Assembly: GCA_038002745.1 (NCBI GenBank)
Contig: JBBODD010000001.1
Span: 3,658,001-3,722,000 of the forward strand
From: Bacillus sp. FSL H8-0547
GTDB taxonomy: Bacteria; Bacillota; Bacilli; Bacillales; Bacillaceae
Direction: 5' to 3'
DNA length: 64,000 nt
Shown here: piece after piece, positions 19,805 to 63,841 of the stretch
How the letters are laid out: each line of letters starts with the position of its first letter
Position numbering within the stretch: position 1 is the first letter of the stretch
Notes under the pieces: generated by a model
What the model was told of the DNA's origin: nothing
The model's database searches: none
What the model saw: the letters and a program-made list of their open reading frames with translations, nothing else
Program-made: the position numbers and the translations under genes

Positions 19805-19868
19805 AAAAATGAAACTTTTAATAAATCCGCTTCGTATATAAAGTCATTCAAAGACTGCGGGGTGCAAA

Positions 19869-20183
19869 ATGAAAAAATACCTGTTTTTTGTTCTGTTGAC
19901 AGTGATCATCGAGTCTTTATTGATAACCGGCACAATTGTTATATGGAACACCGCTTTTCCTGAAACCATGTTTTTCGGCTCCTTCATATTTCTGTTTATT
20001 TCTTTCATCATAAGCTCTTCGGGTGGATTCCTGTCCAATAACGCTGAGTTCTCCGTTTTTACAGCGATGGCAGGAAGCTATCAGCCAAGGCGCGAGGAAA
20101 GTTATTTGATTGTCAGCCCGTTCTTAGTAGGTTCTGGCCTGTTCTTTATTAGTTATTTTGTCATTTATTATTTTGTTTATTGA
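19869..20183 (+). CDS. Hypothetical membrane protein
   Basis: A 104-residue unrecognised protein with three hydrophobic helices (about 4-24, 34-54, 84-104) and a polar loop containing AGSYQPRREESY. The ATG has only a weak GGGG site. It follows the serine hydrolase gene by 64 bp on the same strand and could be co-transcribed. Confidence 0.65.
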   Translation: MKKYLFFVLLTVIIESLLITGTIVIWNTAFPETMFFGSFIFLFISFIISSSGGFLSNNAEFSVFTAMAGSYQPRREESYLIVSPFLVGSGLFFISYFVIYYFVY

Positions 20184-61958: not shown

Positions 61959-62069
61959 TTGTGCCAGCTCCTAAAACCTTGCCTCTTACTTACATATGAA
62001 AAACCTGAAACTTTTGTTCTCGCGGAACGTATGAAAAGAGCAGGAACTTTTAACGAAAGAGGGATTGTC

Positions 62070-62234
62070 ATGCTGAAAAAATTGATTAAATCGTTTCTCG
62101 GAAAAAAATCGCACCGCAGATACAGCAGCAGCGACCGAAGAAGCAGACCATACGGAAATCCTTCAAAATACGGCTATAAGCACTACAAACGCAAATCAAA
62201 ATCGAGCAGATTTTCAGGATCCTACAGCAGCTGA
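62070..62234 (+). CDS. Small Ser/Arg/Lys/Tyr-rich basic protein, 54 residues
   Basis: A short protein: an N-terminal amphipathic segment (MLKKLIKSFLGKK), then a low-complexity part of alternating Ser, Arg, Lys, Tyr and Gly (SHRRYSSSDRRSRPYG and later SKSSRFSGSYSS). It is very basic, probably disordered, and contains many serines in basic context, as expected of a kinase substrate. Its stop overlaps the kinase start (TGATG). AGAGGG precedes the ATG. No family is recognised. Confidence 0.75.
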   Translation: MLKKLIKSFLGKKSHRRYSSSDRRSRPYGNPSKYGYKHYKRKSKSSRFSGSYSS

Positions 62235-63049
62235 TGAAGAACCTTCTCCTAAAATACGGAGAGCGGCCACTAAAGGCCGGTGATGTAATTGATCATCGAT
62301 ATACCATACAGAAAGTCCTTGGAAAAGGAAGCTACGGCATCACATATCTTGCTTTAACAAAAAGAGATGAGCCGCTTGTGCTCAAACAGCTTAGGGCATA
62401 TAAGGCTGCAACAGACAGCGGCCTGTTGTCATTCAGGCTTGAAAAAGAACTGCTGGCAGAACTCAGCAGTCGGTATTTTCCGGCTTATTCAGGCTCATTT
62501 TTTTGGAACAACAAGCATTTCATTGCAATGGAGTATATGGGGGGAGATACGTTTGAAGATTTAATCTTCCTGAAAAAAGAATCATTCGGAGAGAAGGAAT
62601 CTTTCCGTATTTTGTTGAAAGTAATAGAGGCTGTAGAGGTTCTTCATGCAAAAGGGATTGTGCACAGGGACTTGAGGATTCCAAATATCCTCTTGAAGCA
62701 TGACTCCATCAGAATCATTGATTTCGGACTTGCGGCAAGAATTGGTGAGGGACCGGATCCGGCAGAATTGGGAAAGTCTTTTTCCCGTGAAAAAAGACTT
62801 TACAGAGAACGTTCTTTTCAAAGCGACTTTTATGCGCTTGGCCACTTTGTTCTTTTTCTGCTGTATTCGCAATATGTTCCTGTTACGAAAAAGAACAGAA
62901 GCTGGGAAGAAGAACTTGCAATAACTCAGCACTCAAAAGATACGATTAAACGGATGCTCAAGCTTCAGCAGCCATATGACAGGATTGAAGACCTGAAAGC
63001 TGATGTTTTGAAGTGTGCAGATGGGGGAGAAGAAAATGTCATTTTTTAA
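62234..63049 (+). CDS. Serine/threonine protein kinase (YbdM-like)
   Basis: A 271-residue soluble kinase: glycine loop GKGSYGITYLAL (about residues 35-46), ATP-binding Lys in LVLKQL, catalytic loop HRDLRIPN (Arg where most have Lys), and metal-binding IIDFGLA. There is no transmembrane helix or PASTA region, so it is a cytoplasmic kinase of the YbdM kind. The start overlaps the previous gene, and it overlaps spo0M by 14 bp. Confidence 0.93.
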   Translation: MKNLLLKYGERPLKAGDVIDHRYTIQKVLGKGSYGITYLALTKRDEPLVLKQLRAYKAATDSGLLSFRLEKELLAELSSRYFPAYSGSFFWNNKHFIAMEYMGGDTFEDLIFLKKESFGEKESFRILLKVIEAVEVLHAKGIVHRDLRIPNILLKHDSIRIIDFGLAARIGEGPDPAELGKSFSREKRLYRERSFQSDFYALGHFVLFLLYSQYVPVTKKNRSWEEELAITQHSKDTIKRMLKLQQPYDRIEDLKADVLKCADGGEENVIF

Positions 63050-63806
63050 TAAAATTTTATCAAGTGTAGGAATTGGGGCTGCAAAAGTGGATGCAAGACT
63101 TGCATCTGACAGGATTGCTCTTATGGATGAAGTAAAAGGCATCATTCATGTTCAGGGGGGAAATGTTGAACAGCAGATTGATGAGATTTATCTGTCCCTC
63201 CAAACAAGTTACTTAAAAGAGACAGATGATAAAAAGTATTATCAAAACGCCACAATCACCAAAATCAAAATCAATGAGCCATTTGTCATCATGGCAAATG
63301 AAGTGAAAGAAATACCGTTTGCGTTTCAGCTTCCTTCGGATACGCCGATTACTCTCGGTTCATCAAAAGTGTGGCTCGAAACAGGGCTGGATATTAAAGG
63401 GGCCGTTGATCCAAGTGATAAAGACCGGATTGAAGTCCTTCCACCCGCTATTGTTCAAACCGTATTTGCCGCTTTAAGAGATCTCGGATTCAATTTGCGC
63501 AAAGCAGAAAACGAGGCAGCTCCATACCATTTGAGAAAAAGGCTGCCGTTCATACAGGAATTTGAATTTTATCCGACTGCAGGTCCGTTCAGAGGGAAAT
63601 TAGATGAACTGGAGGTCGTGATTTCAAATATCAGTCCGCAGGGAGTAGAGCTAATGCTTGAGATCGACAGGAGAGCAAGAGGTCTGGGAGGATTTTTGTC
63701 AGAAGCGCTTGAAATGGATGAATCTCTTGTTAAAGTGATGATTCCAAATGCGGATCAGCAGGCCATCCGCAGAACATTGGAAGATGTTATCCATAGATAC
63801 AGCTGA
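63036..63806 (+). CDS. spo0M: Sporulation-control protein Spo0M
   Basis: A 256-residue protein beginning MSFFNKILSSVGIGAAKVDARL, which matches Spo0M. The N-terminal two beta-sandwich halves (arrestin-like fold, as known for the family) are followed by a C-terminal part with RRARGLGGFLSEALEMDESL. Spo0M affects entry to sporulation in B. subtilis. ATG 63036 follows GGGGAG and overlaps the kinase gene by 14 bp, so they are translationally coupled. Confidence 0.95.
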   Translation: MSFFNKILSSVGIGAAKVDARLASDRIALMDEVKGIIHVQGGNVEQQIDEIYLSLQTSYLKETDDKKYYQNATITKIKINEPFVIMANEVKEIPFAFQLPSDTPITLGSSKVWLETGLDIKGAVDPSDKDRIEVLPPAIVQTVFAALRDLGFNLRKAENEAAPYHLRKRLPFIQEFEFYPTAGPFRGKLDELEVVISNISPQGVELMLEIDRRARGLGGFLSEALEMDESLVKVMIPNADQQAIRRTLEDVIHRYS

Positions 63807-63810
63807 TTTT

Positions 63811-63841
63811 AAAAGCGGCAAGTTCATCTTGCTGCTTTTTT
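63811..63841 (+). terminator. Terminator of the kinase-spo0M operon
   Basis: Stem AAAGCGGCAAG/CTTGCTGCTTT (one wobble pair) with TTCAT loop and T-run. Confidence 0.9.

Follow-up and report, generated by a model that had tools for sequence, protein, structure and literature searches.

PrkD (YbdM), a soluble Hanks kinase of Bacillus subtilis, is an active Ser/Thr kinase (PMC4166321) whose activating signal is described as unknown (PMC3708118, PMC4166321). The in vitro targets given for the purified enzyme are other kinases (PMC4166321), and a search of the open-access literature, within its accessible text, returned no description of a PrkD partner peptide. A kinase encoded beside disordered proteins rich in Ser, Lys and Arg is known from CotH, which has an atypical, Fam20C-like fold and phosphorylates CotB and CotG, spore coat proteins with repeats (PMC7821199). 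The B. subtilis spo0M gene is listed as a single gene and is strongly sigma-W dependent (PMC3498285), its product has been placed in the arrestin clan by sequence (PMC2515105), and Spo0M, an interactor of division and membrane proteins, is located at the poles and septum (PMC5325327).

Here we report on an operon in which a 54-aa basic peptide, a kinase and Spo0M are encoded in series, located in a 64-kb stretch of DNA that was analysed as a whole (the window). The kinase belongs to the same family as PrkD over nearly its whole length, whereas the gene layout differs: the peptide ORF at prkD is convergent, while the window has the peptide gene ahead of the kinase gene and overlapping it, with spo0M following as the third gene. 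CotH with CotG/CotB is the nearest precedent, and the window module may work alike. Nevertheless, we do not consider it a CotH-type member because the kinase family, the peptide layout and the promoter differ: the best of the 12 Pfam families listed for the window kinase was PF00069 (Pkinase), with the CotH family not among them, and the peptide has 54 aa and is encoded behind a sigma-W-type promoter. The module probably pairs a Hanks kinase with a basic peptide that is cognate to it and probably disordered. A peptide that accompanies a PrkD-family kinase through the Bacilli is an obvious candidate partner, and we consider it highly plausible that this one is dedicated to the kinase as its partner.

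Operon structure, promoter and Spo0M

The peptide, kinase and Spo0M genes overlap in series on the + strand (Table 1). The peptide stop and the kinase start share TGATG at 62232-62236, and the ATG of Spo0M (63036) lies inside the kinase gene, giving a 14-bp overlap; the coordinates and both overlaps in the preliminary description of this DNA were exact. The order YodN, YozD, DUF2515 (opposite strand), peptide, kinase, Spo0M was the same in all three named relatives compared (L062-L064; two Metabacillus records and one Peribacillus frigoritolerans record).

Table 1. Features of the peptide-kinase-Spo0M operon, in window coordinates
Feature	Position	Strand	Basis
Gene for 54-aa basic Ser/Lys/Arg/Tyr-rich peptide	62070..62234 (incl. 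stop)	+	Conservation, pN/pS
Gene for soluble Hanks-type kinase, PrkD (YbdM) family	62234..63049	+	PF00069, PrkD relation, AlphaFold model
Gene for Spo0M, third in operon, outside the core pair	63036..63806	+	PF07070, PDB 5cl2 homologue
Sigma-W/ECF-type promoter TGAAAC-N16-CGTA	62006..62031	+	Perfect motif match
Ribosome-binding site GAAAGAGGG	62055..62063	+	Similar sequence before peptide start in relatives
Codons 1-11, predicted cationic amphipathic helix, possible membrane anchor	62070..62102	+	Hydrophobic moment
Ser19-Ser20-Ser21-Asp22 cluster, candidate phospho-acceptor site	62124..62135	+	Conservation in aligned members
YGYKHYK motif, residues 34-40	62169..62189	+	Gly35, Tyr39, Lys40 invariant in 26/26
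Kinase catalytic loop HRDLRIPN	62663..62686	+	H144, R145, D146, L147, R148, N151 invariant (23 aligned kinases)
Intrinsic terminator-like hairpin at operon end	63811..63839	+	12 pairs, then T run

We take TGAAAC-N16/17-CGTA to be the promoter consensus of sigma-W; other ECF sigma factors have promoter sequences similar to it. The window holds 2 perfect sites of this type against 0.21 expected, and sigma-70 promoters were seen 2 times against 3.6 expected. The second perfect site (TGAAAC-N17-CGTA, 19810-19836) stands 32 bases before a 104-aa ORF (19869-20183) which, by reading, resembles a small membrane protein. The motif suggests that the window operon is under sigma-W control, and the genome of the window encodes SigW (E 9.4e-107, above the curated cut-off). 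A sigma-W gene was present in 119 of the 120 genomes of the order sample at E 1e-20 (112 above the cut-off), and since it is near-universal its presence cannot separate genomes with and without the module.

The 150 bases upstream were scanned in 69 loci, each from a different genome, in which the peptide gene precedes the kinase gene. The sigma-W-type motif was perfect in 49 of these loci and matched at least 9 of 10 letters in 53, compared with 0.025 and 0.8, respectively, expected from shuffled sequence. By group, perfect promoters were found in 7/7 loci of the window's own genus, 19/19 of genus g3, 3/4 of g4/g6, 0/7 of the genus g2 and 20/32 of other families. Sigma-W control is therefore not universal, as 20 loci, including all seven of g2, are without a perfect promoter. 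Spo0M follows the kinase directly in 43 of the 69 co-directional loci, and the perfect promoter accompanies it in 43/43 such loci versus 6/26 of those without Spo0M, among which the split-kinase locus L087 was counted (Fisher p 2e-12, kinship not corrected). The g2 loci have neither a sigma-W-type promoter nor an adjacent Spo0M.

Spo0M of the window matches PF07070 (2.5e-75; 253 bits vs a cut-off of 23), as does the B. subtilis protein, and has a solved homologue (PDB 5cl2) and a charge of -8. Two further, shorter Spo0M-domain matches occur in the same genome (G000:C1 557502-557882 and 3537308-3537685). In the order sample, Spo0M-domain proteins are found in 80 of 120 genomes (1e-15), compared with 47 for the kinase (1e-40). 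A sigma-W-type promoter before an operon that carries spo0M, a gene with sigma-W dependence in B. subtilis, points to envelope stress rather than to sporulation entry, and ties an arrestin-clan protein to the same probable stress operon. The earlier proposal of a link to sporulation entry finds no support. Co-occurrence with sporulation was also considered and set aside: the SpoIVA marker is present in 119 of 120 order genomes, so it has no power for or against such a link.

The peptide and the PrkD-family kinase

The window peptide (pI ~11, charge ~+16) contains 14 Ser, 10 Lys, 7 Arg and 6 Tyr, only 1 acidic residue and no Cys. Its gene occurs in all 7 genomes of the genus, counting the window's own; identity to the other six is 85-94%. 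Mean pN/pS among these genomes was 0.109 for the peptide and 0.100 for Spo0M, with the kinase at 0.318; the peptide gene encodes a real protein under purifying selection and is no chance frame. The window peptide matched no Pfam or NCBIfam model. For a chosen, diverse set of 26 aligned members, searches gave just two weak single-member matches in Pfam (0.03 and 0.08) and none in NCBIfam, and hence a small-protein family is described here for which these databases gave no model.

M1, K4, S20, S21, G35, Y39 and K40 are invariant in all 26 aligned peptides, and the consensus blocks are SSSD, YGHxHYKRK and SSxFFSSYSS. SSS is found in every member and SSSD in 21, leaving 5 without SSSD, and the family averages 13.8 Ser per member. 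In the pairs compared, the peptide gene ended anywhere from 1 base inside the kinase gene to 21 bases ahead of its start, the one-base overlap being the most common. Eukaryotic RS domains with their SR-protein kinases also combine a basic Ser/Arg-rich stretch with a kinase, and the peptide had been likened to an RS segment. The likeness does not hold: RS domains consist of RS/SR runs, whereas the peptide has just 1 RS and 2 SR dipeptides in 54 residues, and its conserved blocks are SSSD and YGxxxYK. In the Bacillus-like genus g2 (L023, L024, L026, L028-L031) the peptide has two SSSD repeats and a TTG or GTG start.

The hydrophobic moment of the N-terminal 11 residues exceeded that of 95% of shuffles in 23 of the 26 members. 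Among 11 class-level peptides checked for transmembrane segments, of which L190 and L194 had starts that, as chosen, omitted the upstream part, those of L193 and L233 have a transmembrane-like N-terminus in place of the amphipathic one (19-residue hydropathy 3.31 and 2.34), with the usual SSSD...GHxHYK...FFSS tail retained behind it. From these N-terminal segments we infer that the tail is located at the membrane.

The kinase was described earlier as soluble and of the Hanks type, and the present data agree: it matches PF00069 at 5.5e-29, and its largest 19-residue hydropathy is 1.29, so no membrane helix is expected. Its AlphaFold model is a compact kinase with a mean pLDDT of 91.9; leaving aside the C-terminus, confidence is lowest in the stretch that follows the DFG motif (residues 171-180; mean pLDDT 67). 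The closest PDB match is the M. tuberculosis kinase 6b2q. K51, E70, D146, N151 and D163 are invariant in 23 aligned kinases, whose catalytic loop reads HRDLR[ILV]xN and in which APE was not seen. Ser/Thr kinases usually have APE, and carry Lys where the window catalytic loop has Arg. With its catalytic residues invariant, the window protein is a predicted Ser/Thr kinase.

Membership of the PrkD (YbdM) family is indicated by sequence comparison. The window kinase is 35% identical to the PrkD-type kinase of genome G036 over residues 9-259 (E 2.1e-42), and the family profile scores that gene (locus L068) at 237.8 bits. The published prkD forward and reverse primer sites (PMC4166321) are exact at both ends of this gene, which is therefore B. 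subtilis prkD, or the prkD of a nearly identical strain. The PrkD-type kinases of L065, L066, L068 and L069 read HSD at the position of HRD in the window kinase. The latter is 94% identical to the kinase of Metabacillus indicus LMG 22858, which places the host near that species. A matching kinase occurs in 24 phage records, in every case below 60% identity. At L149, L188 and L213 the PrkD-type kinase match is divided into two adjacent parts, as though the reading frame were interrupted. Class III/IV lanthionine synthetase kinases lead the NCBIfam list for the window kinase; a RiPP reading was dropped because these matches are far below the cut-offs, and the absence of Cys from the peptide was also noted.

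Pairing of peptide and kinase across the class Bacilli

The order sample (120 genomes) was searched with the peptide model at E 0.01 and the kinase model at E 1e-40, which matched 33 and 47 genomes, respectively, leaving 73 without a kinase at this threshold. In each of the 33 peptide-model genomes the kinase gene has the peptide gene as its immediate upstream neighbour on the same strand, so that the pairing, which the preliminary description had named as a test of its proposal, is strongly supported. Among the 14 kinase genomes without a peptide-model match, one (G179) has an upstream peptide and 10 have a convergent, Ser/Arg/Tyr-rich peptide just downstream of the kinase. Two more (G120 and G121) encode upstream of a kinase scoring just 175 and 180 bits a ~120-aa protein with YGNxHYQRKG or a similar motif in its head; the tail of this longer form, from its Cys pairs, looks like a double zinc ribbon. 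The single miss was G143, with no peptide within 9 kb of the kinase. Altogether, counting the two longer proteins, such a peptide adjoins the kinase in 46 of the 47 kinase genomes. The co-occurrence proposed for three genes was borne out for the peptide and kinase; Spo0M is not directly after the kinase in 26 of the 69 loci.

The class sample (200 genomes; peptide E 0.001, kinase E 1e-40) contained 28 genomes with the peptide, spanning nine families, and 52 with the kinase; all 28 peptide genomes have the kinase. Of the 24 kinase genomes without a peptide-model match, G092 and G137 had already been covered. Among the other 22, a peptide of this kind lies within 1 kb of the kinase in 20, two of these peptides (L199, L203) being of divergent layout; the misses were G272, where the kinase starts at a contig edge, and G288. 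Overall, the peptide is located within 1 kb of the kinase in 36/52 genomes, at ~1.5 to 3.2 kb in 3 and elsewhere in the genome in 11, and none was found in 2. These pairing counts come from related genomes and are not independent events, with several gene arrangements among them. A similar peptide ~2.8 kb from the kinase was found in G054 of the family sample. In G170 the kinase gene is split into parts ~6 kb apart (L148 1765-8690), with the peptide gene still upstream. G160 has the standard operon and an extra, unlinked peptide gene (L153 2166-2360) with no kinase within the 5 kb fetched.

The convergent arrangement also occurs at prkD itself and at related kinases (L065-L069). The convergent ORF at prkD is Ser/Arg/Tyr-rich and 64 aa long; the B. 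subtilis gene is presumably ybdL. Convergent peptides score weakly against the family model, but 27 of 31 beat all 200 of their composition-preserving shuffles and 30 of 31 were beaten by at most 2. They likely share ancestry with the aligned family, with low complexity weakening the scores. A background test covered 148 loci, many of them overlapping one place, with the loci of unlinked peptides (L153, L157 and others) lying outside it. It counted 136 Ser/Arg/Tyr-rich ORFs in the 234,180 bases that lie no more than 400 bases from a kinase of either type, and 0 in the remaining 358,054 bases. Its filter, which used the longest start giving no more than 110 aa, let through 0 of the 382 window ORFs and thus overlooked the peptide of the window itself. 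In summary of the layouts, the pairing is conserved and the peptide is tied to the PrkD family across the class Bacilli in several arrangements.

Candidate roles of the peptide

To our preferred reading we give about an even chance: an envelope-stress module in which a PrkD-family kinase works with a dedicated, probably membrane-associated peptide, as its substrate (or activator), through a phospho-charge switch. The peptide would dock on the cytoplasmic face of the membrane via its N-terminal amphipathic helix, or a transmembrane helix in some relatives, and present a disordered, strongly positive tail. The kinase would phosphorylate the conserved Ser clusters (SSSD and the C-terminal SS), and the lowered charge of the tail would switch how it binds a partner or the anionic membrane. 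Sigma-W would raise peptide, kinase and Spo0M together when the envelope is stressed; the acidic Spo0M would act in the same stress response and may be one partner. Since the peptide (+16) and the window kinase (+5) are both basic, docking between them is not favoured. Also counting against this reading are the 5 aligned members that lack SSSD, the unlinked peptide genes, the kinases of G143 and G288 with no peptide found close by, the 20 loci that lack a perfect promoter, the weak scores of the convergent peptides and the other kinases given as in vitro targets of PrkD. The substrate role is favoured because the serines are invariant, the activator role because the PrkD activation signal is unknown, and both may hold. 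The idea of a writer and its substrate, carried over from the preliminary description, draws its support from conservation, and phosphorylation of the peptide is a prediction. A fuller version, in which the peptide is both anchor/activator and multi-site substrate of PrkD and its phosphorylation state is a readout of membrane charge or damage that governs partners, Spo0M among them, is put forward tentatively, as possible but not probable. If true, it would constitute a bacterial phospho-electrostatic switch, class-wide, that supplies PrkD's missing input, and the B. subtilis version makes the partner question testable.

The peptide could instead be mainly an activator or membrane adaptor that binds the kinase, recruits it to the membrane and switches it on, which we consider somewhat unlikely. 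The missing signal for PrkD fits this explanation, as does the low-confidence segment after DFG in the kinase model, and the constant pairing suits a regulatory subunit as well as a substrate. However, the conserved Ser clusters would be left unexplained, and PrkD, once purified, phosphorylated kinases other than itself in vitro; the accessible part of that report (PMC4166321) mentions no peptide.

It is doubtful that the peptide serves as a basic structural protein in the envelope or on the spore surface, like a small CotG/CotB, with phosphorylation by the kinase just tuning assembly. Its composition does resemble the SKR regions of CotB/CotG, phosphorylated by the adjacently encoded CotH (PMC7821199), and the sporulation marker is nearly ubiquitous in the order. 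Yet the promoter is of the sigma-W type in 49/69 loci, and not of a late mother-cell type; 73 of the 120 order genomes are without the kinase at threshold though nearly all carry the marker; and the kinase is a member of the Pkinase (PF00069) family.

The original proposal, that Spo0M reads the phosphopeptide in the manner of an arrestin and signals to sporulation, now appears quite unlikely. The arrestin-clan placement (PMC2515105) and the position of Spo0M after the pair in 43/69 co-directional operons, overlapping the kinase in the window, speak for it. Against the role of phospho-reader stand the 26 of 69 pairs without an adjacent Spo0M and the wider spread of Spo0M-domain proteins (80 vs 47 of 120 genomes); the promoter points to envelope stress, and an acidic Spo0M would rather bind the unphosphorylated basic peptide.

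We hold it very improbable that the peptide is a membrane-active cationic amphipathic agent, harmful unless phosphorylated by the kinase: its N-terminus and the overlapping genes would suit this, but unlinked peptide genes and an extra copy exist, and purifying selection is strong in the genus. Least credible of all is an anti-phage defence system with the peptide as sensor or target of the kinase, for although matches to the kinase come from 33 PADLOC models (mad6 the best, at 8.6e-32, positions 48-207 of 659; among the 25 matches listed, two PD-T4-6 kinase models over ~2/3 to 3/4 of their length, up to 4-219 of 292), kinase-domain matches are expected for any Hanks kinase and PADLOC lists no cut-offs, the peptide and Spo0M match no PADLOC model, and the locus keeps the same chromosomal neighbours in three named relatives.

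Peptides of the family also accompany a second kinase type, which we take to be YrzF. At L040, L041, L044, L047 and L049 the peptide sits directly downstream of a different, divergent kinase of ~225 aa, which matched Pfam Pkinase at 4.5e-5, under its cut-off, in L041 and not at all in L047. The family sample had relatives of this kinase in 73 of its 80 genomes (E 1e-15); among 21 of its loci examined, 7 have a downstream peptide gene and 14 do not. In G121, the divergent kinase, the longer peptide form and the PrkD-type kinase follow one another in a row. That a single family of peptides is encoded next to two types of kinase suggests that the peptide works with kinases. By locus, the row with the YGNxHYQRKG-like/zinc-ribbon-like protein between the divergent and the PrkD-type kinase lies at L144 (414-2229), and its last two members also at L145 (1152-2245).
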